Of a stretch of 64,000 nt of DNA, positions 8,057-44,273 are shown one piece after another. The first letter of the stretch is position 1, and each line of letters opens with the position of its first letter. The DNA comes from Parazoarcus communis SWub3 = DSM 12120 (GTDB lineage: Bacteria > Pseudomonadota > Gammaproteobacteria > Burkholderiales > Rhodocyclaceae), in NCBI RefSeq assembly GCF_003226565.1, contig NZ_QKOE01000003.1, positions 124,001 through 188,000 of the forward strand, given 5' to 3'. Both the position numbers and the translations under genes were made by a program. The notes under the pieces were generated by a model, which saw nothing but the letters and a program-made list of their open reading frames with translations, searched no databases and was not told where the DNA came from.

Positions 8057-8120
8057 TTCCGATACCCGACTCAACGTGATAGATGGACGAATTCTACCGA
8101 TACACGATGCAGCGACCGGT

Positions 8121-8888
8121 TCAGAATTCGATGACCTGTCCCTGCACCAATGCTTGCGGGCGAAGGCGCCCGCCATGACTCTCGATCTGCTGCAGGATAC
8201 GCTCGCCCATGCCGGGCTTGAGATGGCTGATATACACCTCGGGCGCGACAGACAATTCGCTCAGCATGGTCGCCAGCATTCCCGGGCACAAATGGCGTGA
8301 TGCCATTGCCAGACCTCGCTGTTCATCCGGGAAGGCGGTTTCAACGATCAGGTGGCGCAAGGCCGGCAAGGCGTTGATCGCCTCGACCAACTCAGGGCAG
8401 TACGCTGTATCGCCGGAATACAGCAACTGCGCTTGCCCACTATCGATGCAATACGACACTGCAGGTACCGTATGGTGTGCCGGGAGGGCGGTAAAGACCC
8501 GACCGCCAAGCGACACGGACTCGCCAAGCAACATTGGCTGAAAACGCATGAAAGGCCGCTGACGATCCGGTATCGAACTGAAGTCAGGCCACACCAACCA
8601 GTTGAATATATGCGAACGCAGGATACGCAGGGTCTCTGGTGTGGCGTACACCGTAAGCGGATATCCTCGTCCATCCCCCACCGAATCCACCAGCAGGGGG
8701 ATCGAGGCGATGTGGTCGAGATGAGAATGCGTGATGAAGATGTGGTCAATTCGCTTGAGTGCATCCAGCTCAAGATCACCGACGCCGGTACCACAGTCGA
8801 CCAACACATCGTCATCGACAAGAAAGGCCGTGGTACGCGCCGAGGCACCACCAATCCCGCCACTGCACCCGAGCACCGTGAGCTTCAT
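8121..8888 (-). CDS. Metallo-beta-lactamase-fold phosphodiesterase, class II cyclic-nucleotide PDE-like
   Basis: The 255-residue protein has the metallo-hydrolase metal motif HSHLDH (54-59) within THSHLDHIASIPLLVD, a wording typical of class II cAMP phosphodiesterases. It also has a HH pair in PAHHTVPA, SGDT and a late SHLKPG. Class II enzymes (yeast PDE1, Vibrio CpdP) hydrolyse 3',5'-cyclic nucleotides. The best-supported start is ATG 8888, after GGGTGA; an upstream in-frame ATG at 8942 has no good ribosome site. It lies 64 bases from the GAF-ATPase gene on the same strand. There is no obvious signal peptide, so it should be cytoplasmic. The substrate is inferred from family resemblance. Confidence 0.75.
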   Translation of the reverse strand: MKLTVLGCSGGIGGASARTTAFLVDDDVLVDCGTGVGDLELDALKRIDHIFITHSHLDHIASIPLLVDSVGDGRGYPLTVYATPETLRILRSHIFNWLVWPDFSSIPDRQRPFMRFQPMLLGESVSLGGRVFTALPAHHTVPAVSYCIDSGQAQLLYSGDTAYCPELVEAINALPALRHLIVETAFPDEQRGLAMASRHLCPGMLATMLSELSVAPEVYISHLKPGMGERILQQIESHGGRLRPQALVQGQVIEF

Positions 8889-13780: not shown

Positions 13781-15745
13781 ATGAAAACAAGACGGACTCG
13801 GATCGCCCTACTCGTCACCAGCCTGTCACTGGGCATACCCGCAACCGTGCACGCGACGGTCTTCGGAGAAATTCTATCCCTGTCACCGATCGGCGCTCCG
13901 CTACGCGTCGAGATCGCTGCCCCTGGCAACCGGCTTCGAGATCCGTCGTGCCTGCGTGTGGTCAGCCCGGAGTCGTCGACAGACGGCTTGCCCTCCATAA
14001 GACGCGCCCGTATCAGCATCACCGGCAGCGGTGCCGACACCCGGCTGGTGGTGAGCGCCGCCGAAGCCATGATGGAGCCCGCAGCAAGCCTCACGCTCGT
14101 CGACGCCTGCGAAGCGCGTTTCCGCAAGCAATACACCTTGCTGTTTCCTTACCCGGTGACCGCACCTGTACTGGCGGCCACACAGCAAGCCGCCAGCCCA
14201 ACTGCCAGCAAACGCCCTACGCGCGGCGATGCCCGGACCTGGGTGACAGCACCTGGCGAATCGCTCGACAGCCTGGGCAAAGCCCTCTACCCCCACGATA
14301 CCGATACCCGTAGGCGGTTTGTACGCGAAACACTGAGGGCCAATCAGGATATCTTCAGCGACGGCAGCTCGGCGACAACCCCCTTGCCTCCAGGCACCAC
14401 CCTCAACATCCCGGACCTGGCGCGACTGAGCGCAACCGCTCGCCCGGCGACGACGCCAGCAAGAGCGGAGCCACGCCCCGCCAAACCCTCGGCGCCTGCC
14501 GCATCACAGCCTGCAACCATTCCCGCCCCACTCAGCCCCTTGCCGACAGGGGCAGGTGAAGACAGGCTGGTGGTCGCGCCAGACCAGCCCACAACAAACC
14601 TACCGGCCTCTGTTGCCTCCGGCCAGATCAAGCTCAGTCCGCTTTCTGAAACGTCCCTGGCGCAACGTGAGCAACAGGTTGCATCGGCCATCGACCGCAC
14701 CACCATCATGCAGATGGAGTTGCTGGAACGGATAAAGGAACTCGAGCAGATTCAGGCACGGCTGATCGAACAGGCCAACCTGGTTGCCCAGCTTCCCGCC
14801 CCGACGGTTGTTGCCCCAAGCCCGCAGGCGGCCGGCACCACGCCACCAGCCATTCCCGAGCCCACACCGTCTTCAGTCTTCGACTGGCTATTGCCGTTGC
14901 TGCTAGGGCTTGGGACCGGTGTCATCGCCTTGACGCTGATCCAGCGCTCACGCCGTGGCCGAGCTGACGCCCGGACACAGGCCTCGTCCACCGCGGTAAC
15001 GAACACACCAAAGCCCACCACGACGCAAGTCACTGACAACGCCCCACCCCAGCCATCCGCACCCGACACGACGGCGTCCCTGCACGTTGCCGGCGTTGCA
15101 CCGCTAGAGTGGGACGGGGCGACAACCGAGACCGCCGATTATGGGCTGGGCCCGCTGGCGGAGGAAGAAGAGGTCGAAGAACACGACTCTGCCATCGAAC
15201 TTGCCGAGATCATGATGAGCTTCGGGCGGGTCCATGGTGCCGCGGAAACCCTTGCGGACTTTATTCGCGGCAATCCCAAGCAAGCCGTTACCCCGTGGCT
15301 CAAGCTCCTTGAGGTTTATCGTGCAGCGGGGCTTCGTGCCGAGTTCGATGGCCTTGCGCGGCAACTGAACAAGACCTTCAACGTCAAGGCCGTCACCTGG
15401 GACAATTTCGATGAGGCACGCAGCGCCCCCGACGCCCTGGAAAAGATGCCCCACCTGATCAAGACCGTTGAAGAGACCTGGGGGACACGTGAATGCCAAG
15501 CCTATCTGCAACGACTGCTACGGGATAACCGTGATGGCACACGGCAGGGTTTCCCGCTGACAGTCATTGACGACATTCTTTGCTTGAACGCGGTACTCGA
15601 GCAGCAGCTGGGCCCCTACAAAGCGGAGCTGGAGCCAGAAGCACGACCGGCGGCGGCCTACGACGACCCCCCTGAAACCGAGCCACCCCACAACGGCCCG
15701 CCAACCACCTTGATCCCGCCGGGCGCGCTGGACAGCAAACACTAG
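13781..15745 (+). CDS. FimV/HubP-like polar pilus-assembly protein
   Basis: FimV-family proteins organise the cell pole and promote type IV pilus assembly. The 654 residues show a signal peptide (1-25, cut after VHA), a FimV N-terminal beta domain (VFGEILSLSPIGAPLRVEI, from 27), a LysM-like peptidoglycan-binding section (about 150-190), a long Pro/Ala linker, a short coiled coil (about 290-325) and one membrane span (about 365-388). A cytoplasmic acidic/TPR-like tail includes the ELAEIMMSFGR segment. It stands alone, with 200 bases upstream and the Nif3-like gene converging from the right. Confidence 0.8.
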   Translation: MKTRRTRIALLVTSLSLGIPATVHATVFGEILSLSPIGAPLRVEIAAPGNRLRDPSCLRVVSPESSTDGLPSIRRARISITGSGADTRLVVSAAEAMMEPAASLTLVDACEARFRKQYTLLFPYPVTAPVLAATQQAASPTASKRPTRGDARTWVTAPGESLDSLGKALYPHDTDTRRRFVRETLRANQDIFSDGSSATTPLPPGTTLNIPDLARLSATARPATTPARAEPRPAKPSAPAASQPATIPAPLSPLPTGAGEDRLVVAPDQPTTNLPASVASGQIKLSPLSETSLAQREQQVASAIDRTTIMQMELLERIKELEQIQARLIEQANLVAQLPAPTVVAPSPQAAGTTPPAIPEPTPSSVFDWLLPLLLGLGTGVIALTLIQRSRRGRADARTQASSTAVTNTPKPTTTQVTDNAPPQPSAPDTTASLHVAGVAPLEWDGATTETADYGLGPLAEEEEVEEHDSAIELAEIMMSFGRVHGAAETLADFIRGNPKQAVTPWLKLLEVYRAAGLRAEFDGLARQLNKTFNVKAVTWDNFDEARSAPDALEKMPHLIKTVEETWGTRECQAYLQRLLRDNRDGTRQGFPLTVIDDILCLNAVLEQQLGPYKAELEPEARPAAAYDDPPETEPPHNGPPTTLIPPGALDSKH

Positions 15746-15776
15746 GCCAGCCCGGCAGGGCGCCTGGCGCCGACAG

Positions 15777-16526
15777 TCAGACGGGGTTCGGGAGATCCAG
15801 GAAACTGGCCTCCAGACCGAGCACATCGCGCAGATAGCCAGCCATCGCCATGGCACCATAGCGTTCGGTCGCATGATGTCCCGCTGCGATGTACGGCACA
15901 CCGGACTCGCGCGCAATGTGAGTGGTCTGTTCGGATATTTCACCCGACACATAGACATCCACACCCGCAGCAATCGCCTGCTCGAAATAGCCCTGCGCGC
16001 CTCCGGTGCACCATGCAAGCCGGCCCACCGGCCGCGCCGGATCCCCCACCAGCACCGGCTCGCGACCGAGGCGCAGGGCCAACTGTTCGGCAAGCTCGGC
16101 CGCCGTCCCGCCCGCGCGTTCGGGCACCCCCAACCAACCGATATCCTGCTCGCCAAAACGCCCGTCCGCGCACCAACCCATCAAGCGGGCCAGCTGTGCG
16201 TTGTTACCCAACTCGGGATGCACGTCCAGCGGCAGGTGATAGGCGAACAAACTGATGTCATGCTGCAGCAGGGTTGCAAGCCGACGCTTGCGCATGCCAA
16301 CGACGCGCCCATCCTCACCCTTCCAGAAATAGCCATGATGCACCAGCACTGCGTCGTAAGCGCCGGCGACCGCAGCATCAAGCAGGGCCTGGCTGGCGGT
16401 CACGCCGCACAGCACCCGGGCGACCTCCGGCCGACCTTCCACTTGCAATCCGTTTGGGCAATAATCCCGCAGTCGGGCCGACTCCATCACCCCGTCCAGA
16501 TGAGCCTGCAAGGCTGTCAATTGCAT
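15777..16526 (-). CDS. Nif3-like dinuclear metal centre (DUF34/YbgI) protein
   Basis: A 249-residue member of the Nif3/YbgI family, a widely conserved fold with a two-metal site of uncertain biochemical role (suggested GTP cyclohydrolase-like or metal insertion functions). Visible signatures are DYCPNGLQVEG near the N-terminus, VHHGYFWKGE, the HLPLDVHP segment and GHHATERYG near the C-terminus, supplying the conserved His and Glu ligands. The start at ATG 16526 gives MQLTALQ; the frame reaches further upstream but over poor sequence. It is divergent from the DegS/AlgW-like gene across 81 bases. Confidence 0.88.
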   Translation of the reverse strand: MQLTALQAHLDGVMESARLRDYCPNGLQVEGRPEVARVLCGVTASQALLDAAVAGAYDAVLVHHGYFWKGEDGRVVGMRKRRLATLLQHDISLFAYHLPLDVHPELGNNAQLARLMGWCADGRFGEQDIGWLGVPERAGGTAAELAEQLALRLGREPVLVGDPARPVGRLAWCTGGAQGYFEQAIAAGVDVYVSGEISEQTTHIARESGVPYIAAGHHATERYGAMAMAGYLRDVLGLEASFLDLPNPV

Positions 16527-16607
16527 GGTTTCCCCACCCTCATTCCTGCCCCTGTCCTGCGGCCTGTTTCTCGTGCCGCCATCCTGTCCTGAAATCGAGT
16601 TTCCATT

Positions 16608-17759
16608 ATGCGCCGCCTGTGGCTGATCTTTGCACAGGCCGTGACCGCAAGCGTCGCGGTTCTGTTCGTACTCAATACCCTGAAACCGGAATGGCTTCAT
16701 GACGCCACGCCAGATGCCGTCATCTCCATCTTCGAGACACCGCGCGCACCCGCGCCGTCCACGGCCCCTGGATCCTATGCGGATGCCGCAGAGCGATCAA
16801 TGCCCGCCGTCGTCCACATTTTCACCAGCAAATCCAGTCGTGCCCAGCGCCACCCGCTGATGAACGACCCTTTGTTCCGCCATTTTTTTGGTGACGGCAA
16901 CAACGAATCGCAACGGAGCGCAGGGCTGGGCTCGGGCGTCATCGTCAGCCCCGAAGGCTACATCCTGACCAACAACCACGTCATCGAAGCCGCTGACGAA
17001 ATCGAAGTCTCACTCAACGACGGACGGAAGTATGCCGCCCGCGTCATTGGCCGCGACCCGGAAACCGACCTGGCCGTACTGCGCATCCAGACCGATACCG
17101 TACTGCCGGCGATCACCTTTGCAACAGGCGAGCCACTGCGTGTAGGCGACGTCGTGCTCGCCATCGGCAACCCCTTTGGCGTTGGCCAGACCGTCACCAT
17201 GGGCATCATCTCGGCCCTCGGCCGCAGCCAGCTCGGCATCAACACCTTCGAGAACTACATCCAGACCGATGCAGCGATCAACCCTGGCAACTCGGGCGGC
17301 GCCCTTGTCGACGGAAGCGGCAGTCTGGTCGGCATCAATACCGCGATCTACTCGCGCTCCGGTGGCTCACTCGGCATCGGGTTTGCCATCCCGGTTTCCA
17401 TCGCACGCGACGTGCTGGAGCAGATCATTGCCTCCGGTGAAGTCGTACGCGGCTGGGTGGGCGTGGAAATTCGTGAACTGACCCCGGAGCTGGCCAACAC
17501 CTTTGGCCTGCGCAACACTGCGGGGGCACTGATCGCAGGCGTGCTGAGAGGCAGTCCGGCGGAACGAGGCGGCATTCGCCCCGGCGACATCCTGCTAGAC
17601 GTCGATGGGCGCTCGGTGCAAGACCCGAAAGGCATGCTCGAAATGGTCGCAGCCCTGCCGCCAGGCAAAACTGCAAGCTTCCGTGTCCGCCGCTCGGGCG
17701 AGGAAATCGAACTGAAAGTCGCAGTCGGTCGTCGTCCGACACCTCAGGCAGTACGCTGA
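16608..17759 (+). CDS. DegS/AlgW-like membrane-anchored serine protease
   Basis: A 383-residue HtrA protease with one PDZ domain. An N-terminal hydrophobic anchor (about 5-24) is followed by the trypsin-like domain with catalytic His124 (TNNHVIE), Asp154 (DPETDLAV) and Ser229 (PGNSGGAL). The PDZ domain covers about 280-370. One PDZ plus an uncleaved-looking anchor fits the DegS/AlgW class, which cleaves anti-sigma factors in the envelope stress response. DegP/DegQ have two PDZ domains. No rseA or rpoE gene is near, so this role is inferred from architecture. Confidence 0.88.
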   Translation: MRRLWLIFAQAVTASVAVLFVLNTLKPEWLHDATPDAVISIFETPRAPAPSTAPGSYADAAERSMPAVVHIFTSKSSRAQRHPLMNDPLFRHFFGDGNNESQRSAGLGSGVIVSPEGYILTNNHVIEAADEIEVSLNDGRKYAARVIGRDPETDLAVLRIQTDTVLPAITFATGEPLRVGDVVLAIGNPFGVGQTVTMGIISALGRSQLGINTFENYIQTDAAINPGNSGGALVDGSGSLVGINTAIYSRSGGSLGIGFAIPVSIARDVLEQIIASGEVVRGWVGVEIRELTPELANTFGLRNTAGALIAGVLRGSPAERGGIRPGDILLDVDGRSVQDPKGMLEMVAALPPGKTASFRVRRSGEEIELKVAVGRRPTPQAVR

Positions 17760-34423: not shown

Positions 34424-34451
34424 TTGACTCGACCGAGACAAAATGTAAAAT
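34424..34451 (+). promoter_or_regulatory. Sigma-70 type promoter of the MSHA-like operon
   Basis: TTGACT (34424-34429) and TAAAAT (34446-34451) are separated by 16 bases. The start point would fall near 34459, giving a leader of about 20 bases before the secretin ATG at 34479. The region is AT-rich compared with its surroundings. Confidence 0.65.
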
Positions 34452-34478
34452 GAATATGCATTCAACATCAATCAGACA

Positions 34479-36164
34479 ATGCATATACGTACCGTCGCTA
34501 CCTGTTGCTTCCTGATGGCACTCGCCGGGTGTGCGCAACTGCCTCCAGCCGGGCCACCCGATCAGGCCACGCATGACACGCCGGAGTCTTCCGGCGAGCA
34601 TCCGCCAGCAGCAGCCTTGCCCCCAAGCACCGCCGGGCAGCCGCCTCCCGCACCCCCAAGCCCCGGATACTCGCTCTCGGTCAACCGCATCTCCGTCGAA
34701 CAGTTGTTGATTGCGATCGCTCGCGACGCGGACCTCGACCTCGACGTACACCCTGGCGTCACCGGCGTCGTCACGCTCAACGCCATCGACGAACCGCTGC
34801 CACGCCTGCTCGACCGCATCGCGCGACAGACCGGTCTCCGCTTCGAGCTCGACGGCCACCGACTGGCGGTCATGCCAGACACCCCGGTGCTTCGCAGCTA
34901 CCGCATTGACTACGTCAACCTGAGTCGCGCAATGAAGGGCGAAGTTGCGACAAGCACCCAGATCTCCACCAGTTCGAGCGCGCTGGGCGATGCCCGCCAC
35001 AACGACGGCGGCAATGCATCGCTGACCAAGATCGAAACCCTGTCCGCAAACCGCTTCTGGGAAACCCTTGAAACCAACATCCGCACCCTGTTGAAGGAAC
35101 ATGAGCGCTTCATCCAGCGTCGCCATTGCGATGACATGCGCCGCAGCGCCGAGTCCGCCGACGCCCAGGCAACGCCTTCGTGTGAGGACGCCGTCGAAGC
35201 CGACTTCATCGTCAGCAACCGCGAAACCGGTACGCTGATGATCCGCGCCACTTCTGCCCAGCACACGCGCATCGCCGAGTTTCTCGACCTGGTTCAGGCC
35301 GCCGCACACCGTCAGGTCACGATTGAAGCCACCATTGTCGAAATCACCCTGGCAGACGGGTACAAGCAAGGCATAGACTGGAACCGCCTCAACTCGCCCA
35401 ACGCCAGCCTCCGGCCGCGAGGCGCCGACACGGATGCCAGTGCGCTGTCGCCGACCATTACCTATCTGTCAAGCCTGCTCGACATCAAACTCGACCTGCT
35501 GGAGTCCTTCGGCACCGTCAAGGTCTTGTCCAGTCCCCGCCTTTCAGTCCTGAACAACCAGACCGCCATGCTCAAGGTGGTCGAAGAAGTGGTCTACTTC
35601 CTCGTCGACGCATCAACCACCACGTACGACGACAGCAGCCGCGAGAAGATCACCGCCACCACAACGCCACAGTCGGTGTCGGTCGGCATGGTGATGGCGC
35701 TGACACCCCAGATCGGCGCGGACGGTCACATCACCCTGAACGTACGCCCCACGATTTCATCAATCTCCGGCTTTCGAGACGATCCCAACCCTTCACTGGG
35801 TGCAATCCCCAACCGGGTCCCCCAGATCCGTACCCGCGAGATCGAATCGGTGCTGCGTCTCGCCGATGGTGAAGTCGCCATCCTCGGTGGGCTGATGGAA
35901 GACAAGATCGACTACGACACCGGCCGAATCCCGCTGTTCGGTGCCATTCCGGTACTCGGCGAACTGTTCACCCGCCGTGACAACTCCGTCCGGCGGACCG
36001 AACTGGCGATCTTCCTGCGGCCCCGCATCGTCGCCCGCGATGCGCCACCCCACCCGGTCGCCCGGCACCGGCACGCCTTGCCCACAGGCGACACGTTCCA
36101 TCTCGACTCGGCACCCGGTACGCGAAACTTCCCCGGCCGACTGATCATTCGCGAGGCACGTTAA
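34479..36164 (+). CDS. MshL/PilQ-type secretin lipoprotein
   Basis: Outer-membrane channel of an MSHA-like type IV pilus or related system. The 561-residue precursor has a lipoprotein signal with lipobox LAGC (Cys18), a Pro-rich linker (about 22-65), N-domains starting around 75 and the C-terminal secretin domain (about 320-525). The latter includes VKVLSSPRLSVLNNQTAMLKV in outline and the VPQIRTREIESVLRLADGE region. Gene order with a MshE-type ATPase and GspF-type platform favours MshL over PilQ or GspD. First gene of nine. Confidence 0.87.
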   Translation: MHIRTVATCCFLMALAGCAQLPPAGPPDQATHDTPESSGEHPPAAALPPSTAGQPPPAPPSPGYSLSVNRISVEQLLIAIARDADLDLDVHPGVTGVVTLNAIDEPLPRLLDRIARQTGLRFELDGHRLAVMPDTPVLRSYRIDYVNLSRAMKGEVATSTQISTSSSALGDARHNDGGNASLTKIETLSANRFWETLETNIRTLLKEHERFIQRRHCDDMRRSAESADAQATPSCEDAVEADFIVSNRETGTLMIRATSAQHTRIAEFLDLVQAAAHRQVTIEATIVEITLADGYKQGIDWNRLNSPNASLRPRGADTDASALSPTITYLSSLLDIKLDLLESFGTVKVLSSPRLSVLNNQTAMLKVVEEVVYFLVDASTTTYDDSSREKITATTTPQSVSVGMVMALTPQIGADGHITLNVRPTISSISGFRDDPNPSLGAIPNRVPQIRTREIESVLRLADGEVAILGGLMEDKIDYDTGRIPLFGAIPVLGELFTRRDNSVRRTELAIFLRPRIVARDAPPHPVARHRHALPTGDTFHLDSAPGTRNFPGRLIIREAR

Positions 36165-36168
36165 CGCC

Positions 36169-37914
36169 ATGAGCACACTCGCGATCAATGCCACCACCAG
36201 CAGGCCTCACGACCGCCGACCGCTGGGCGAGACCCTGCTGCAGACCGGACTGATCGGAGACGATCAGCTACGCACAGCCCTGCTCGAGCAAACGCTCCGC
36301 CCACGACCACTGGGCCGTATCCTGGTCGAACTGGGCTTCATCTCCGATGCAACATTGCGCGACACCCTCTCGGCCCGGCTGGGACAGCGCACGATAGACC
36401 TTCAACGTACGGTCATCGACACCGCCGCACTGGCCAGCGTACCCGAGACGCTGGCACGCACGCACGCGATCATCCCCCTGCACGTCGACCAGGCCCTCAA
36501 ACAAGCCGTCATTGCCAGCGGTGAAGCCCACGACCTCATCGCCATCGACGCCCTTCAGCGTCAGTTGGGCGCGGATTACCGCATCGAGATCCGGCTGGCG
36601 TCAGAGCCGGAGATCCGGCAGGCCATCGATCAGCACTATGGCCACACCCTGCAGATCGACGACATCCTGCATGAGATCGAAACCGGCAGCAGCGACAGCC
36701 GAAGCCCCGCCAGTGCAATGGACAAGCCGGAGTACCCGGTCGTGCGCCTGATCGACGCGCTGCTGGCCGATGCGGTCAAACAGGGCGCCTCCGACCTGCA
36801 TTTCGAGCCCGAAGCCGGCTTCCTGCGCATCCGTTATCGCATCGACGGACTGCTGCGCCAGATCCGTGTCCTGCACCACAGCTACTGGCCCGCGATGGCG
36901 ATCCGCATCAAGATCCTGGCAGGGTTGAACATTGCCGAAAACCGCTCACCCCAGGATGGCCGCATGGCGTTGAACCTTGCCGGTCGCCCCATCGACTTCC
37001 GCGTCTCCGTCCATCCCACCCTGCATGGCGAGAACATCGTCCTGCGCATCCTCGACCGGCACAAGGGCATCGTCGATCTCGACACACTAGGCCTCACTGC
37101 CAGCCAGCTCGCGCACATCGGACGCATGACCCGACGGCCGGAAGGGCTCACCCTGATCACCGGACCGACCGGCAGCGGAAAGACCACCACGCTCTATGCG
37201 CTGCTCCGCCAACTGGACCACGAGCATGTCAACATCATGACACTGGAGGATCCGGTGGAGTACCCGATGCCACGGGTCAGGCAGACCTCGATGGGCGAGA
37301 CTGCACGCATCGATTTCGCCAGCGGGGTGCGGGCGATGTTGCGCCAGGACCCGGACATCATCCTGATCGGCGAAATCCGCGACAGCGAAACAGCCGAGAT
37401 GGCACTGCGTGCAGCAATGACCGGTCACCAGGTGTTCTCGACACTGCACACCCGGTCGGCAATCGGCGCCATCGCCCGCCTGCTCGATCTTGGCCTTCAT
37501 CCCGACATCCTCGCCAGCAACCTGTCTGGCGTGATCGGCCAGCGGCTGATCAGGCGACTGTGCCCCGACTGCTGCAGTTCGAGCCCACCAACCGATCAGG
37601 AACGCGCCCTCTTCGCCCAGTTTGGCATCGCCGCCAGCGAGCATGTACTGGCACGGGCCAGGGGCTGCGCACGCTGTGGCGGCTCCGGCTTTCGCGGACG
37701 CCTCGCCTTGCTCGAGACCCTGACGCTCTCCGACACGCTGGAAGCCCTGATCGCGACACGTGCCAGCGCAGGCGAACTGAACCATCATGCCCGCACCGAG
37801 GGCTTCATCACCCTGGCGGAAGACGGACTGCGCCGTGTCATGGAGGGCGTCACCACACTCGATGAGGTCGGGCGCGTCGTTGATCTCACGCGACCAGGGG
37901 CGGCGCCGCGATGA
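36169..37914 (+). CDS. MshE-type pilus assembly ATPase
   Basis: A 581-residue GspE/PilB/MshE ATPase. The N-terminal MshEN region (about 15-160) contains RPLGETLLQTGLI and RPLGRILVELGFI repeats, the kind that bind cyclic-di-GMP in Vibrio MshE. The core has Walker A GPTGSGKTTT (332-341), LEDPVEYP, GEIRDSETAEM and TGHQVFSTLHT. A four-Cys zinc site comprises CPDC and CARC. It starts four bases after the secretin and overlaps the next gene. Cyclic-di-GMP control is an inference from the N-domain. Confidence 0.9.
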   Translation: MSTLAINATTSRPHDRRPLGETLLQTGLIGDDQLRTALLEQTLRPRPLGRILVELGFISDATLRDTLSARLGQRTIDLQRTVIDTAALASVPETLARTHAIIPLHVDQALKQAVIASGEAHDLIAIDALQRQLGADYRIEIRLASEPEIRQAIDQHYGHTLQIDDILHEIETGSSDSRSPASAMDKPEYPVVRLIDALLADAVKQGASDLHFEPEAGFLRIRYRIDGLLRQIRVLHHSYWPAMAIRIKILAGLNIAENRSPQDGRMALNLAGRPIDFRVSVHPTLHGENIVLRILDRHKGIVDLDTLGLTASQLAHIGRMTRRPEGLTLITGPTGSGKTTTLYALLRQLDHEHVNIMTLEDPVEYPMPRVRQTSMGETARIDFASGVRAMLRQDPDIILIGEIRDSETAEMALRAAMTGHQVFSTLHTRSAIGAIARLLDLGLHPDILASNLSGVIGQRLIRRLCPDCCSSSPPTDQERALFAQFGIAASEHVLARARGCARCGGSGFRGRLALLETLTLSDTLEALIATRASAGELNHHARTEGFITLAEDGLRRVMEGVTTLDEVGRVVDLTRPGAAPR

Positions 37915-39116
37915 CTTTGCACCGCTATCGCGCCATCGACCAGCAGGGCCGTCTGGTACGAGGCAACATCGACGCCGCTGGCCCTGTCGAACTGGAGGCC
38001 CGGCTTGCGCGACGCGGGCTGGAGTTGATCGACAGCCAGCCAGTGTGGTTCGCCCGCTTCGCCTTGAGCCACACCGCGCCACCGCGACGTGAGCTGATTC
38101 AGTTCTGCTTTCATCTGGAGCAACTGCTCGATGCTGGCATCCCGATGCTCGACGGCCTGCAGGATCTGCGCGACGCCACCCGCCATCCACGCATGCGCGA
38201 GATCGTCACTACGCTACGGGAGGACATCGAGAACGGTGTGCCACTCTCGGTCGCCGCTGAAGCGCATCCGCAAGCCTTCGACGCCATTGCCTGCAGCCTG
38301 CTGCATGCTGGCGAGCAGACTGGCGAACTCGCACCCATGCTGCGCCAGTTGGCCGAGACTCTGATCCGCGAGGACGAACTCTCGGCACATGCGCGCAAGC
38401 TTGCCATCTACCCGGCCATCGTACTAAGTGTGCTGGTGACAGCCGTCGTCATCGCGCTGACCTTCGTTGTTCCCGAGTTGGCGCAGCTGTTCCGCAGTAC
38501 CGGCCAGTCCCTGCCCCTGCAGACCCAGCTACTGATAGACGCCTCCAATGGCCTGCGCGAATACGGCTTGCTCAGCATGCCTGTCCTCGCCGCACTGTGT
38601 GCGGCCGTCGCCCTGGCAACGCAACGGTCTGATGCCTTTGCCCAGCGCATCGACCACATCCGCCTGCAGTTGCCGATCATTGGTCCGATCGCTCACAAGA
38701 TCGCAATCGCCCGCATTACACGGCTGTTCTCAATGCTCTACCGATCCGGCATCACCGTACTCGACGCGCTACGCAACACCGAGCACATGACTCGCAACCG
38801 CGTTGTCCGCAACAGTCTGAAGTTGGCATCGGTACGCATTGGATCCGGCAGCAGCATCTCGGCAGCCTTCGATGAGTCAGGCATCTTCCCCAGCCTGGTC
38901 ATCCGCATGCTGCGCGTCGGCGAGCAGACCGGCGCCCTCGACGATGCGCTGGACAAAGTCGTTTATTTCTATGAACGCGATGTCCGGGAATCGATCGAGC
39001 GCCTGCAGGCCAGCGCCGAACCGGCACTCACCCTGGCACTGGGGCTGGTGATGCTATGGATCATCTTCGCCGTGCTCGGCCCGATCTACGACATCCTGAC
39101 TCAACTCCCGGTGTAG
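37911..39116 (+). CDS. MshG/GspF-type inner-membrane platform protein
   Basis: The 401-residue platform protein around which pilins are assembled. Two GspF domains are visible: the first with FCFHLEQLLDAGIPMLDGL, the second with RLFSMLYRSGITVLDAL. Each is followed by a GEQTG motif and hydrophobic spans near 165-190, 205-225 and 370-395. Start overlaps the ATPase stop by four bases. Confidence 0.9.
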   Translation: MTLHRYRAIDQQGRLVRGNIDAAGPVELEARLARRGLELIDSQPVWFARFALSHTAPPRRELIQFCFHLEQLLDAGIPMLDGLQDLRDATRHPRMREIVTTLREDIENGVPLSVAAEAHPQAFDAIACSLLHAGEQTGELAPMLRQLAETLIREDELSAHARKLAIYPAIVLSVLVTAVVIALTFVVPELAQLFRSTGQSLPLQTQLLIDASNGLREYGLLSMPVLAALCAAVALATQRSDAFAQRIDHIRLQLPIIGPIAHKIAIARITRLFSMLYRSGITVLDALRNTEHMTRNRVVRNSLKLASVRIGSGSSISAAFDESGIFPSLVIRMLRVGEQTGALDDALDKVVYFYERDVRESIERLQASAEPALTLALGLVMLWIIFAVLGPIYDILTQLPV

Positions 39117-39123
39117 GCAAGCC

Positions 39124-40635
39124 ATGACTGCCCACATCCTGATCATCGTCGACGACAACGGCTTCGAAGTCTGGCAACGCCAGCGTCGCAACATCTGCCT
39201 GCGCTTACAGACGGACGGACATGCCGAACCTGCCCAACAGGCACTGGAAAGCTGGATCAAGCAGCACGCCACCCATCTCCCGTGCGCAATCCTGATCGAA
39301 AACGCCGATGAACGCCTTGTCCTCGACCACCTGCCACGTTGTGGCCGCAACGACCGTCTGACCCTGCTAGCACGCCGGCTCGCACAACAGTTTCCGGCAA
39401 CCCCCTACGTCACCCACTTTCCCCAGCCTTCACCCCACGACCCCACGAACCGCGAGACCATCCTGCTCGCCGGCCTTGGCACCACTGATGTGCTGGCCGC
39501 CCTGATCGCAATCATCGATCGCTTTAACCTGCCCATCGCCCGCATCGTCACCCCAACCCTGTTGCTGCAGACCCCGTCACTTCGCACCGCCAACCCGGAG
39601 CAGCACGAGTTGTTGCTGTGCTTCGATGGTGCAGCGATGCAGATCGTGCTGACCTCCCACGGCGCCCTGCGCTTCACCCGTCAATCCCGAGGACGTGCCA
39701 CCCTTCTGGCCGACAGCCTTCCCGACCACGTTCAGACGCTGGCCCAGACCTGCGCCTATCTGGTCGGACAGCGCTTGCTGGACACCCGGCAGGCCCCGCG
39801 GGCCAGGGTAATTGCCGCAACCAAGGATCACACGACCCTGGCAGCCCTTGCCGATGCCGGCATCGAGATCACGCTCGTCAATCCTCGATCATTGATGCGC
39901 CCGCTCCCGGCGCTTGCTCCCGACGCGGCCCAAAGCGAAACACGCGCACTGATGGTGCAATTGCTGGCCGAACATTCCAAGACCGGCTATCTGCCAGGCG
40001 CTCTCCGCCACCGCTACCCACTCTGGCGCAGCGCACGGCTCGCGATCGCCGCCGGAACAATCAGCTTGATCGCGGCGACCGGTCTCAGCGCGGCACGCCT
40101 GGCCGACGCCAACCTGCAGGCCAGCCAGTCGGCCCAACTGGAAACACGGATCGACGACACGCATCGTCAAGTGGCTGCACTGACCGAAGCCGAACAACGC
40201 AACACCGTTCCCTCACACGCGACGATTGCACTGGCACGCGCACTGCACGAACACCAGCAGCTTGAGATCTCATCCGGATCGGTCATGCATCACCTGTCCA
40301 TGCTGCTCGCCGATGCCCCCTCGCTACGTCTGCAACGCCTGGCCTGGCACCCCACCGCAACAGAAACCGCGACAAGGTCATCGCCCCCCCCGCTACCGAC
40401 GGACATCACCGTTTACGCCAGCATCCGAGCGGAAGATACGGCCGAAGCAGCAACCTCGGCACTCGAAGCGGCCATAGCCCGATGGCAGGCTCGATCAGGC
40501 CACCAACTCGACTGGCAGTGGCAGCCCAGCGGCGCAAAAGCGCTCACCGTGCCCACGAACATGCCCGTGCTTGACATCAAACTCACGATCGCACGGGACA
40601 TGCTGACTCAGCCCACAGACAAGGTGCAGCCATGA
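39124..40635 (+). CDS. Putative MshI/GspL-like inner-membrane assembly protein
   Basis: A 503-residue protein that I do not recognise at family level. By position, and by an N-terminal cytoplasmic half of about 295 residues followed by one membrane span (about 302-322) and a periplasmic half with a coiled-coil-like start, it fits MshI/GspL or a PilM-PilN fusion. A Cys-containing FDGAAMQIVLTSHGALRF strand resembles the actin-like fold. No nucleotide motif is clear. Confidence 0.55.
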   Translation: MTAHILIIVDDNGFEVWQRQRRNICLRLQTDGHAEPAQQALESWIKQHATHLPCAILIENADERLVLDHLPRCGRNDRLTLLARRLAQQFPATPYVTHFPQPSPHDPTNRETILLAGLGTTDVLAALIAIIDRFNLPIARIVTPTLLLQTPSLRTANPEQHELLLCFDGAAMQIVLTSHGALRFTRQSRGRATLLADSLPDHVQTLAQTCAYLVGQRLLDTRQAPRARVIAATKDHTTLAALADAGIEITLVNPRSLMRPLPALAPDAAQSETRALMVQLLAEHSKTGYLPGALRHRYPLWRSARLAIAAGTISLIAATGLSAARLADANLQASQSAQLETRIDDTHRQVAALTEAEQRNTVPSHATIALARALHEHQQLEISSGSVMHHLSMLLADAPSLRLQRLAWHPTATETATRSSPPPLPTDITVYASIRAEDTAEAATSALEAAIARWQARSGHQLDWQWQPSGAKALTVPTNMPVLDIKLTIARDMLTQPTDKVQP

Positions 40636-41207
40636 TCCTGCCAGGCAAGCCGGGCTGGCAGCTTCGACGCTTCAGCCTCAGTCTGATGACTGGCCTGCTT
40701 GCATTGTGCCTGCTGTACGCAAGCGACCAGTACCTCGATCAATCCTCCCGACGCCTGCGTGCTGCACAAGCCAGCCTGCTCGAAACACAACGGCAACTGG
40801 ACGCTCTGCGTCGGCTCCAGCAAGAAGCATTGGCCGCCCGCGCAGACCTGGCCGACCTGCTGGCGGGCGCCCCTCGATCAACGGAAACCGACTGGCGCAC
40901 GCCCTTCCGACACCTTCGCGACCTGCCACTGATCCTGCATCACCAACTCGAAAGCAGTCCACCCCGGACACAGCACGTCGACGACGGCATGACGCTGCAG
41001 TTGCGCGATCTCACCCTGCACCTGGACCTTGTACATGAAGGCGGACTACTGGCTGTCGCTGAATCCCTGTCCGTCCCTGCCGGCGCCCGCCTCCTTCCGC
41101 GCGGCTGCCAGGTGGAAAAGCCCCCGACCATTGTCCACGCAGCAGTGCAAGCCCACTGCCAGTTTCGCTGGATCACTGTCACCTTCAACGCAACGCCTAC
41201 ACCATGA
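40632..41207 (+). CDS. Putative MshJ/PilO-like assembly protein
   Basis: A 191-residue protein with one N-terminal span (about 15-33) followed by a coiled coil (about 40-75), then a small periplasmic domain. That is the MshJ/GspM/PilO layout. It overlaps the preceding gene by four bases. The sequence shows no specific motif, so the call rests on topology and order. Two cysteines near the C-terminus may form a disulfide. Confidence 0.55.
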   Translation: MILPGKPGWQLRRFSLSLMTGLLALCLLYASDQYLDQSSRRLRAAQASLLETQRQLDALRRLQQEALAARADLADLLAGAPRSTETDWRTPFRHLRDLPLILHHQLESSPPRTQHVDDGMTLQLRDLTLHLDLVHEGGLLAVAESLSVPAGARLLPRGCQVEKPPTIVHAAVQAHCQFRWITVTFNATPTP

Positions 41208-41647
41208 AGCCCATTACCCACGCAACGCTACTTGCGCTCGTCATATCGTGCGCCGGCACACAGGCCTTCGCAACAGAGCGCCGGCTGGGCACCCTGTTTC
41301 ACACCGCGACAGAGCGCGAGGCGCTTGCACACCGCGCCTTGAAGGTCGAAGCGCAATCCCCCGCCGAGCCACCCGTCCCGCACGACCTCCCCCCATTCCG
41401 CCTTGACGGCGTGCTGTGGAAAGACTCGCGTCCAGTCATGCTATGGGTAGATCGACAGCCGTTCTCCAGCGCGGCATCGCTCGGCGCGACCGTCAAGCTC
41501 CCCACTGACTGGCAGATCCACCTCGCGCCCGGTCACATCCGACTGATCGACGCCGCCGGGCAGACATCGCGACTTCATGCGGGCGAGCACTGGCCCCTGG
41601 CCTCCCCAGCCTTTCAGCTTGAGCGCAGCACGGCCAAAGCAAGATGA
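41204..41647 (+). CDS. Putative MshK-like periplasmic protein
   Basis: A 147-residue exported protein with a signal peptide (cut near residue 22, AFA). The FRLDGVLWKDSRPVMLWVDRQPF strand pattern in outline resembles the beta domains of MshK, PilP and GspC that link platform and secretin. It overlaps both neighbours by four bases. Assignment is by size, topology and order. Confidence 0.5.
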   Translation: MKPITHATLLALVISCAGTQAFATERRLGTLFHTATEREALAHRALKVEAQSPAEPPVPHDLPPFRLDGVLWKDSRPVMLWVDRQPFSSAASLGATVKLPTDWQIHLAPGHIRLIDAAGQTSRLHAGEHWPLASPAFQLERSTAKAR

Positions 41648-42882
41648 AAGTCCGGCACCTGCAAGGCGGCGCCATGCTCGCCGCCCTGACCTTGCTCCTG
41701 CTGATCGGCAGCCTGGCCGCATTGCTCGGTCTCGACGATCCTGGCATCCGCGCAGTCAGCCGTGCACAGATCCGTAGTGTCGAGGCCCTCGCCCAGGCAC
41801 GTAGCGCACTCATCGGCTACGCGGTCAGCTATGCAGAATCACACCCCGGGCAAGGCAGCGGCTACCTGCCTTGCCCGGACAGCGCGAACACGGGCTCCGC
41901 CACCATTGGGGCCTGCTTCGCACGCGACGACGGCGCCCTGGGGCGTTTGCCCTACCGCACCCTGGGGCTGGCCGACCTGCGCGACGGTTGGGGCGACTGC
42001 CTTTGGTATGCCGTGGGCGGTAGCGTCAAGAACAACCCCAAGCCACAGGTGCTCAACTGGGATAGTCCGGACCCATTCACCCTGGTCGACATCCATGGCA
42101 ACACGCTCGCCGGAGCAGACGCTGCAGCCGCCATCCTGTTCGCACCAGGCCGGCCCCTCGATGGACAGAGCCGCCCATCAGGCACTGGCAGCCGCTGCCC
42201 GGGCAGCCCGGATGCCGGCAACGACCTGCCCCATTTCCTCGACGGCAACTACGCTGCTCACCTGACCAGCGCACCGGTGTTCATCCAGGGCCTGCCGTCG
42301 CACCCTGGCAACAACGACGTCCTCGCCTGGATCACGATTGACGACATCTTCGCCGCGATGCGCAAGCGCAGCGACTTTGCCACACAGATCGACGCGGTCA
42401 TCGACCGCGCCGCGCAAGCCCTGGCCCTGCGCCTGGACAATGTCGGCTTTCTCGACGCTCATGTCACGCTTGAAGCGGGCAACCGGGCCAGTGGCCCGCT
42501 ACCCGATGCAGCCGCACTCGGCATCCCTTCGCCTTATGCGGATCCGCATGACAACTGGCGCGACCAGTTCCGTTTTGTCGCCTGCAAGGACGGCAGCACC
42601 TGCTTGATAGCAGACCTGGCAGACAGCGCGGCAACACCGGCCCAAGCGGTACAGACGACGTGTCGCGCCCTGCTGCTGTTCGGCGGAGAACGCATCCGTA
42701 CCGGGCCGCTGCAGCAGTCGCGCACAACCGCAGCCGAGCGTGCTGACCCGATGCAGTACCTGGAGCCACCCAATGTGGACAGCCTGCTGTCAGCCACCGG
42801 CGGATTTGCGGGTTACCGGCACTTCTCCATACCCGACCCCCTGCAGCCCTCGACTGCGGACGTGATCCGCTGCCTGCCATGA
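41644..42882 (+). CDS. Large pilin-like protein of the MSHA-like operon
   Basis: A 412-residue protein with an N-terminal hydrophobic helix after GGAML (about 9-30), similar to PilX/MshP-type minor pilins but without the usual Glu5. Beyond it are LPCP, a Cys-bearing loop, RLPYRTLGL and DGWGDCLWY, a module that recurs in the next gene. The large C-terminal part has many cysteines, suggesting disulfides in the exported form. It could be a tip or adhesin-like subunit. No closer family is recognised. Confidence 0.5.
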   Translation: MKVRHLQGGAMLAALTLLLLIGSLAALLGLDDPGIRAVSRAQIRSVEALAQARSALIGYAVSYAESHPGQGSGYLPCPDSANTGSATIGACFARDDGALGRLPYRTLGLADLRDGWGDCLWYAVGGSVKNNPKPQVLNWDSPDPFTLVDIHGNTLAGADAAAAILFAPGRPLDGQSRPSGTGSRCPGSPDAGNDLPHFLDGNYAAHLTSAPVFIQGLPSHPGNNDVLAWITIDDIFAAMRKRSDFATQIDAVIDRAAQALALRLDNVGFLDAHVTLEAGNRASGPLPDAAALGIPSPYADPHDNWRDQFRFVACKDGSTCLIADLADSAATPAQAVQTTCRALLLFGGERIRTGPLQQSRTTAAERADPMQYLEPPNVDSLLSATGGFAGYRHFSIPDPLQPSTADVIRCLP

Positions 42883-43574
42883 CCCTAGCACCGCTCACAC
42901 CGTATTGCAGCGGAAAACGCGACCAGGGTTTCACGCTGGCCGAAATGGCCATCGTCCTGCTCATTCTCGGCCTGCTCGCCAGCAGCCTGCTCCCTCCGTT
43001 GAGCGCGCGGATGGACGAGCGCGGCCGTCAAACCACCGCGGCCCGGCTGCAGGACATTGAGCACGCACTGATCGGTTTTGCCATCCTGCACGGCCGGCTA
43101 CCCTGCCCCAGCACCGAAGCCGATCCGGCCAGCGCGCATTACGGCCTCGAGCAGACCCCACCCTGCAACCACGCCCAACCGGGCTTTCTCCCATGGCGCA
43201 CACTGGGACTCACCGCGGTAGACGCCTGGGGACAGCCTCGATCGAACGTATCCGACTCCTGGGATGGGCACTGGCGCTACCGACCGGATCCGGGTCTGAG
43301 CGACAGCACGATCACTGCTGCGTCCGCCACCCAATCCAACATTCAGATCCGCGACCACGCCGGCAACGCAATCACCACACTCAGCGCTTCACGTGCTGCT
43401 GCGGTGGTGTTCTCGATGGGCGCCAACCGCCAGCCCGACGGACTCAACGCCACCCACAGCCCTAACGTCCCCACCTTCCAGGCGGGTGAGACCACCCCGG
43501 TGTTCGACGATCAAGTGCTGTGGATCGGCCTGCCCTTGCTGATCTCGCGGCTGGCCCAGGCCGGCCGACTATGA
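42879..43574 (+). CDS. Prepilin-type minor pilin
   Basis: A 231-residue prepilin with a 17-residue leader and the type III signal QGFTLAEMAIVLLILGLL (cleavage after Gly18, Glu at +5). The mature part has LPCP, a CN-containing loop, FLPWRTLGL and DAWGQP, matching the module in the preceding gene. It overlaps that gene by four bases. It should be processed by a prepilin peptidase, which is not encoded in the window. Confidence 0.85.
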   Translation: MTLAPLTPYCSGKRDQGFTLAEMAIVLLILGLLASSLLPPLSARMDERGRQTTAARLQDIEHALIGFAILHGRLPCPSTEADPASAHYGLEQTPPCNHAQPGFLPWRTLGLTAVDAWGQPRSNVSDSWDGHWRYRPDPGLSDSTITAASATQSNIQIRDHAGNAITTLSASRAAAVVFSMGANRQPDGLNATHSPNVPTFQAGETTPVFDDQVLWIGLPLLISRLAQAGRL

Positions 43575-43616
43575 CATTCCCCACTCATCCACCCACGCAA
43601 GACAAGGAGCGTATCC

Positions 43617-44273
43617 ATGCAGTCGAAATCCCGCAGCGCAGGCTTCACCCTGGTCGAGATCGCCATCGTACTGGTCATCGTCGGCCTGTTGATGGGCGGG
43701 GTCCTCAAAGGCCAGGAATTGATCAATAGCGCCAAGGTCAAGAATCTTGCCCAGGACTTCCGCACCATTCCGCTATACATCTACGGCTATCAGGACAAAT
43801 ACCGCGCACTCCCTGGTGACGACCTCAGGGCACAGACACATTTGTGTACAACGGCCGCTTGCACCGCGAACGGCGATGGCAACGGACAGATCGGTGGCAG
43901 CTGGGACGATACGGTCACCGCGACCCCCAGTGAGGCCGTCCTGTTCTGGCAGCACATCCGCCTTGCCCGGCTGGCCAGCGGCGCGACGGCAACCACCGAT
44001 GCCAGCTATCTGCCGGTCAACAGCGAGGGCGGGCGCATCGGGGTGCAGAGCGGGGGCGCGGCGGCACCGCTGGGCGTACAAGGTAGCCACGTCGTGTGCT
44101 CGGCCGCGATTCAGGGCAAATACATCCGTCAGCTTGATACCGCGCTCGACGACGGCAGCCCGGAAACGGGTAGCTTGCGGGCCGGCTCGTCGGTCAATGG
44201 CACGCTGACTGCCGTCAGCGCAGCCAATCCGCTGGACGACTCGACACCCTATGTCGTGTGCATGGGCATCTGA
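43617..44273 (+). CDS. Prepilin-type pilin, probable major subunit
   Basis: A 218-residue prepilin with a short leader and AGFTLVEIAIVLVIVGLL (cleavage after Gly9, Glu at +5). The following YGYQDKYRALPGDD segment is typical of a pilin family found in Azoarcus-like organisms. Two Cys pairs are present. It is last in the operon, 42 bases after the previous gene, with AAGGAG before the ATG; this strong site and position fit a major subunit. Confidence 0.85.
   Translation: MQSKSRSAGFTLVEIAIVLVIVGLLMGGVLKGQELINSAKVKNLAQDFRTIPLYIYGYQDKYRALPGDDLRAQTHLCTTAACTANGDGNGQIGGSWDDTVTATPSEAVLFWQHIRLARLASGATATTDASYLPVNSEGGRIGVQSGGAAAPLGVQGSHVVCSAAIQGKYIRQLDTALDDGSPETGSLRAGSSVNGTLTAVSAANPLDDSTPYVVCMGI

Follow-up and report, generated by a model that had tools for sequence, protein, structure and literature searches.

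The DNA analysed here (the window) is a stretch of 64,000 nucleotides from Parazoarcus communis SWub3 = DSM 12120, and the subject of this report is a compact pilus-type operon of nine contiguous, intact open reading frames (ORFs) at 34479-44273 on its forward strand. In order, these encode a secretin, an ATPase, a platform protein, three proteins of 503, 191 and 147 residues, and three prepilin-like proteins of 412, 231 and 218 residues (Table 1). Five of the eight junctions are ATGA overlaps, and at the remaining three the genes are separated by 4, 7 and 42 bp. The Pfam scan recognized the secretin, an ATPase with T2SSE and MshEN domains, a T2SSF platform and two N_methyl prepilins, while the 503-, 191-, 147- and 412-residue proteins matched no family above cut-off. 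ORF calls and Pfam matches agree with the original prediction, made from the letters of the window, of a nine-gene operon with secretin, ATPase, platform and pilin-like genes and with overlaps at most junctions. All nine genes were present in each of the five species of the genus.

Table 1 Features of the operon and its promoter in the window.
Feature	Position	Strand	Basis
Sigma-70-type promoter, TTGACT-16-TAAAAT	34424-34451	+	Pattern search; motif kept in congeners
MshL-type secretin, 561 aa, lipobox LAGC	34479-36164	+	Secretin PF00263 2.5e-39; TIGR02519 MshL 242.4 bits
MshE-type extension ATPase, 581 aa, MshEN domain	36169-37914	+	T2SSE 4.4e-122; MshEN 7.1e-12
MshG-type platform protein, 401 aa	37911-39116	+	T2SSF 9.4e-52, 174.7 bits
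MshI-type protein, 503 aa: PilM fold ~1-290, transmembrane helix 306-324, periplasmic part	39124-40635	+	AF2 model, Foldseek, VIA, hydropathy
MshJ-position protein, 191 aa	40632-41207	+	Profile A6; invariant H135, C159, C176
MshK-position exported protein, 147 aa	41204-41647	+	Profile A9; invariant G29, L31, F32, R38, G69, G127
Large prepilin without Glu5, candidate tip subunit, 412 aa	41644-42882	+	AF2 model; G9 and non-E at +5 in relatives
Minor prepilin, 231 aa, G/FTLAE	42879-43574	+	N_methyl 3.7e-6
Candidate major pilin, 218 aa, G/FTLVE	43617-44273	+	N_methyl 1.3e-6

A single promoter had also been predicted. One sigma-70-like site was found upstream of the operon, compared with a mean of 1.4 in shuffles of the region, so that the site alone is not significant. 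In the window and each of its four congeners, the operon is preceded by the motif TTGACN, a 16-bp spacer and TANNAT, and on this ground the promoter was taken as real. In one congener (L047) the site lies partly within the ORF as listed, and the true start of that ORF must therefore be further in. Two sigma-54 patterns gave no promoter in the window before either the secretin gene or the gene for the 218-residue pilin.

The secretin was nearer to MshL (242 bits) than to GspD (149 bits). The equivalog cut-off for GspD was not reached (TIGR02517, 149.3 of 351.35 bits), nor were those of the type IVa pilus (T4aP) proteins PilQ (TIGR02515, 135.5 of 284.35 bits for the secretin) and PilB (TIGR02538, 486.2 of 675.65 bits for the ATPase). 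A lipobox-type cysteine was seen in all 13 secretins of the compact operons delimited below, 12 by pattern and one (L073) by eye. For L067 and L068, where an earlier cysteine was matched by the pattern, the lipobox was located by eye. The window secretin is thus predicted from its sequence to be a lipoprotein and may pilot itself to the membrane. The ATPase scored over the cut-offs for MshEN (PF05157, 45.6 bits) and for the cyclic di-GMP (c-di-GMP) motif NF053729 (54.7 bits), and it aligned to Vibrio cholerae MshE (5htl). The MshEN domain is found in PilB too. The platform gene adjoins the ATPase gene, the same arrangement as in full operons.

The 503-residue protein was modelled by AF2 with a pLDDT of 86.5. 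Foldseek matched the model to 5eou (9.1e-11) and 1yf5 (1.2e-8). In VIA, which covered residues 1-291, the best match was PilM (2ych; Z 17.2, rmsd 4.3, 277 aligned, residues 1-284), tied with FtsA chains at up to Z 16.4, and GspL (1yf5) reached Z 14.5. In this model the cytoplasmic half has the actin-like fold of PilM. Hydropathy indicated a single membrane helix, and the periplasmic part behind it is PilN-like by layout. Pfam PilN (PF05137) did not match the protein, and its family profile gave nothing significant against the PDB, PilN of the M. xanthus model reaching only E 0.095. The 191- and 147-residue proteins are PilO/GspM-like and PilP/GspC-like by position. Pfam PilO (PF04350) did not match the former; its PDB profile matches were coiled-coil-like only (best chain sc-CC-6-95, 1.7e-6) and were not taken as homology. 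The MshK profile had no significant match in the PDB.

These three linker proteins and the 412-residue protein had been described as hardly recognizable in sequence. For Pfam families this holds, but the 503-residue protein has the PilM fold, and the divergence of the linkers is ordinary for the family. Between the window and its congeners they were 25-32% identical. Full operons at an ATPase identity of 58-72% showed median identities of 29% for MshI, 29% for MshJ and 33% for MshK (80 of 618 pairs, drawn at random). Accelerated evolution of the linkers in the compact lineage was rejected, since full operons diverge equally at matched ATPase identity.

The 412-residue protein gave an AF2 model with a pLDDT of 91.1. 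In its family G9 was present in 36 of 36 members and glutamate at +5 in none. VIA covered residues 26-243 of the model; among 183 chains realigned, three reached Z>=2, all of them type IV pilins (best Z 4.0). Foldseek returned no match to the model at E<=0.001, and PDB sequence profiles gave none that was significant for the protein. An internal repeat suspected by eye was rejected (best non-self E 0.49). Longer relatives of this pilin add a C-terminal domain (e.g. L136, L132, L134 and L054). A profile of this domain (15 rows) was compared with the PDB, and 19 of the 20 rows listed were lectins, nearly all of legumes (best E 0.0026); the remaining one was a small toxin. Pfam found nothing significant in four long or mid-length relatives or in C-terminal parts, and neither did NCBIfam in the C-terminal parts. 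Repeated stretches were seen by eye in another long relative, L053. The 218-residue pilin was the best conserved protein of the operon, with 69-78% identity to four congeners (53-78% for the pilins overall), and the 42-bp gap ahead of its gene contains AAGGAG.

Scanning genome contigs with the 412-residue family yielded 292 relatives, and the best 80 were surveyed as named loci. Secretin and ATPase were both found in 40 of the 80. Thirty of these 40 had MshN, a tetratricopeptide repeat (TPR) protein, and 26 had MshM, an ExeA-like AAA protein. The ten loci without MshN belong to two Azoarcus and eight Thauera. MshM was seen neither in these ten nor in four other named loci with secretin and ATPase, for which reason its loss alone was rejected as special to the compact clade. 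Loss of a cyclase and a kinase-like gene was likewise rejected: among the 47 named loci that have the two small pilins, 26 are without either gene, and Azoarcus, Thauera and L072 account for only 12 of the 26. One or both of these genes occurred in the other 21 of the 47; in the full operon of L051 both lie at 14150-17129, the nucleotide cyclase being of class III and the kinase-like gene of the HATPase type.

The gene order of the window operon is that of full operons. The window operon lies between mlaFE and kefB-kdsD-lptC, and all ten compact loci sit between mlaFE and kefB or kdsD. In the DNA examined, full operons had both flanks in three cases (L051, L052 and L058), one flank in twenty and neither in nineteen; because of these nineteen, the site can be called shared only for the nearer relatives. 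A tree of ATPase and platform sequences (57 rows, quick method) was supported by the SH-like approximate likelihood ratio test (SH-aLRT) only. In it, the 13 rows of the window, its congeners (four rows) and Thauera (eight rows) formed a single clade (SH-aLRT 100) that lay among the full operons. How its nearest neighbours branch was not resolved, and the window's branch was long. Two further rows of the tree without MshN are of a different kind: L125 begins at a contig end, and in L103 both the secretin and MshN are missing from the site. Among the named compact loci no broken copy was noticed, a point for which no dedicated test was made.

Other arrangements were seen in related groups. In L055 (4620-12495; genome G027, from another family of the order) a separate small version lies between the same flanks, with an ATPase of just 331 aa whose N-terminus is too short for an MshEN domain. 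Zoogloea and relatives (L083, L089, L095, L096, L080 and L078) have a split mannose-sensitive hemagglutinin (MSHA) system with MshK, pilins and sometimes a cyclase beside kefB-kdsD; an MshL relative was found elsewhere in all six genomes.

Whole genomes were searched for the parts missing from the operon. The best generic TPR match in the five genomes of the genus scored 53 bits, compared with 313-508 in three controls, so that MshN was absent from all five. True MshM was also absent from these five genomes, which held only a paralogue (175-192 bits versus 475-826 for true MshM); the three control genomes have this kind of paralogue too. The original prediction had noted that no prepilin peptidase and no retraction ATPase were present. 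This is true of the operon, and both kinds were found elsewhere in the genome: a single prepilin peptidase match, with pilB and a gene for a platform protein next to it, and three ATPases of the PilT/PilU family that scored over cut-off. The genome further encodes its own type II secretion system (T2SS; GspE and GspD over cut-off) and its own T4aP (PilB over cut-off), the true PilB at C166:110734 scoring 823.7. A second T2SS-like locus was observed (L041 7085-9385 and 11684-13462), with a GspE-like ATPase below the equivalog cut-off and a secretin for which NCBIfam gave no match at E<=1e-60. Within the window, an 824-aa ATPase of the GspE/PilB family with a long N-terminal region is encoded at 5702-8176 on the reverse strand.

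The operon probably descends from a larger MSHA machine, parts of which have been lost in Azoarcus and Thauera. An MSHA-like character had been proposed at the outset, and it is borne out by MshL as the best equivalog (below cut-off), the MshEN domain, the PilM fold, and the order and in several cases the site shared with fuller operons. From sequences and models, the operon probably encodes a reduced machine of the MSHA type (type IVe pilus, T4eP) that would assemble an adhesive pilus on the cell surface. The 218-residue pilin would be the main subunit of the fibre, with the 231- and 412-residue pilins at its tip, and all three prepilins may be processed by the single prepilin peptidase of the genome. 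The ATPase would extend the fibre, perhaps under c-di-GMP control, and a shared motor of the PilT family would retract it. The lipidated secretin would reach the outer membrane needing neither MshM nor MshN.

Several observations weigh against this reading. The secretin fell 8 bits short of the MshL cut-off (242.4 versus 250.2 bits). An annotated Legionella MshL scored 256.0 bits on the same model, and scores below cut-off were also obtained for all four of the other compact secretins scanned and for two of the three full-operon relatives scanned. NCBIfam gave no MshE or MshG match, and no such model was seen in the library; the best matches, all below cut-off, were GspE for the ATPase (TIGR02533, 504.8 of 630.25 bits), GspF for the platform (291 of 424) and GspG and GspH for the two small pilins. 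The roles of main and tip pilins are read from sequence only. The 412-residue pilin of the window has no lectin-like domain, and just 2 of the 20 rows in the search with that domain were below E 0.01. By eye, and with the residues named in PMC5013675 as a guide, Gly11, Gly40, Gln32 and the Leu residues of the MshEN motif are retained in the window ATPase, while Arg9, Arg38 and Gln61 of V. cholerae MshE are replaced by Pro18, Pro47 and Arg70; binding of c-di-GMP is unsure because of these replacements. A loss of the site peculiar to the window was rejected, as the family commonly has Pro or Ile in place of Arg9 (the pattern matched part of the rows, and the rest were read by eye).

The original prediction had instead put forward a possible short pseudopilus serving secretion, adhesion or DNA uptake; for secretion and DNA uptake the evidence does not support it. 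In a system dedicated to secretion, the operon would use the 412-residue pilin to cap a piston that pushes substrate through the secretin. GspK caps the pseudopilus of the T2SS and, like the 412-residue family in 36 of 36 members, has no Glu5. The cytoplasmic half of MshI matches GspL too, the sub-threshold NCBIfam matches of ATPase, platform and small pilins belong to T2SS families, and minor pilins are few. However, the absences cited for a pseudopilus are normal for MSHA or supplied elsewhere, and the secretin is the closer to MshL. The genome holds a T2SS over equivalog cut-offs as well as a T4aP, which weakens the secretion reading, and long relatives of the 412-residue pilin carry the lectin-like domain. 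On balance, we consider a dedicated secretion system unlikely. A decaying, functionless MSHA remnant would fit the stepwise gene loss across Azoarcus and Thauera and the long branch of the window, but it appears improbable, given nine genes and a promoter kept in all five species, pilins 53-78% identical to those of congeners, and compact loci among which no broken copy was noticed, without a dedicated test. A DNA-uptake pilus has a precedent in the Com pilus, a type IV filament machine of very small size (PMC10191384), but is highly improbable here: mla, kefB, kdsD and lptC genes are the neighbours identified (no search was aimed at competence genes), and the genome has PilN and PilO families as well as a T4aP ATPase that scored over cut-off.

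For the reduced MSHA pilus, the genetics of V. cholerae are informative. Surface pili there need mshA, mshE and mshL; deletion of mshM or mshN leaves them at wild-type level, and deletion of mshI raises them (PMC4624765). The two proteins lost here, MshM and MshN, are therefore among those shown to be dispensable in V. cholerae. Both extension and retraction of the V. cholerae MSHA pilus require PilT (PMC9815625). The published MSH model places no peptidase within the locus and lists mshA, mshE, mshG, mshL and mshM as mandatory, with a minimum of 3 (PMC6668835), and mshN is said to have been acquired when MSHA arose (PMC10191384).

Reduction has gone further in Thauera. MshJ accompanied MshI in 49 of the 57 named loci having MshI, and the eight without it were all Thauera (L063, L065, L066, L067, L069, L070, L071 and L073). 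In their MshI relatives the PilM-like part is kept, and the usual periplasmic half is replaced by an MshK-like domain. With the database size set to 10000, the MshK profile matched the eight fusions with whole-sequence E values of 8e-11 to 8e-6, the best stretch lying near the C-terminus (E 3e-10 to 6e-5). The whole-MshI profile stops at position 227-357 of 444 in the fusions; it reaches 418 in T. linaloolentis and 443-444 in two named Azoarcus. A membrane helix was predicted in seven of the eight fusions, no helix passing the limit in L071, and in these seven the linker has 72-94 residues, half or more of them Pro and Ala. Of eight whole Thauera genomes searched, MshJ was absent from seven and MshN from all. 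T. linaloolentis keeps MshJ, lacks the fusion and groups in the tree as sister to the other seven.

We tentatively suggest, as a possibility short of an even chance, that the window represents a middle step in a stepwise stripping of MSHA. Its end point, in most Thauera, would be a filament system of seven genes in which a single protein, with a PilM-like domain, one helix, a Pro/Ala linker and an MshK-like domain facing the secretin, makes up the entire dedicated inner-membrane alignment complex. Pfam PilN and PilO matches were found elsewhere in all ten genomes searched, including that of the window, and borrowing from the T4aP is therefore possible. If the suggestion is true and pili are built without such borrowing, a cell with an outer membrane would be able to make a type IV pilus in the absence of PilN- and PilO-type layers.

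The natural series of full, nine-gene and seven-gene operons shows which parts evolution can remove, and it agrees with the deletion data on MshM and MshN in V. cholerae. It also lets the dispensability of PilN and PilO be examined in nature; the loss in most Thauera examined exceeds what was thought possible for such machines. A 2023 review includes PilN and PilO in a set of eight proteins that are both necessary and sufficient for assembly in Neisseria meningitidis, and its table of the components of type 4 filaments omits MSHA, which it regards as too poorly characterised (PMC10191384). No description of the compact form or of the Thauera fusion was found in the literature on MSHA in these groups or on PilM/N/O fusions, which was available mostly as titles and abstracts and included few subscription journals. 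MSH clusters of betaproteobacteria were already known.

Compared with the MSHA pilus of V. cholerae, the operon has the MshL-, MshE-, MshG-, MshI-, MshJ- and MshK-type parts. PilT is encoded outside the V. cholerae locus, and likewise here. The genome of the window differs in having neither MshM nor MshN, and its nine genes, three of them for pilins, stand in a single run, whereas V. cholerae MSHA is described as two operons of 9 and 7 genes (PMC4624765). The betaproteobacterial MSH clusters reported in 2013 from Sideroxydans ES-1 and Gallionella ES-2 (PMC3770913) belong to the same family. Sideroxydans and Gallionellales loci appear in our survey (ES-1 and ES-2 themselves are outside it), and those with secretin and ATPase keep MshN, unlike the window.

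With the T2SS, the operon shares the GspL-like cytoplasmic half of MshI and a large prepilin without Glu5. It differs by its MshL-like secretin and MshEN ATPase, and a true T2SS is encoded separately in the genome. The chlamydial T2SS is said to be without homologues of GspL and GspM (PMC6668835). It resembles the Thauera system in that inner-membrane assembly proteins have been lost; Thauera, however, retains the PilM-like domain, joined to the MshK-like domain.

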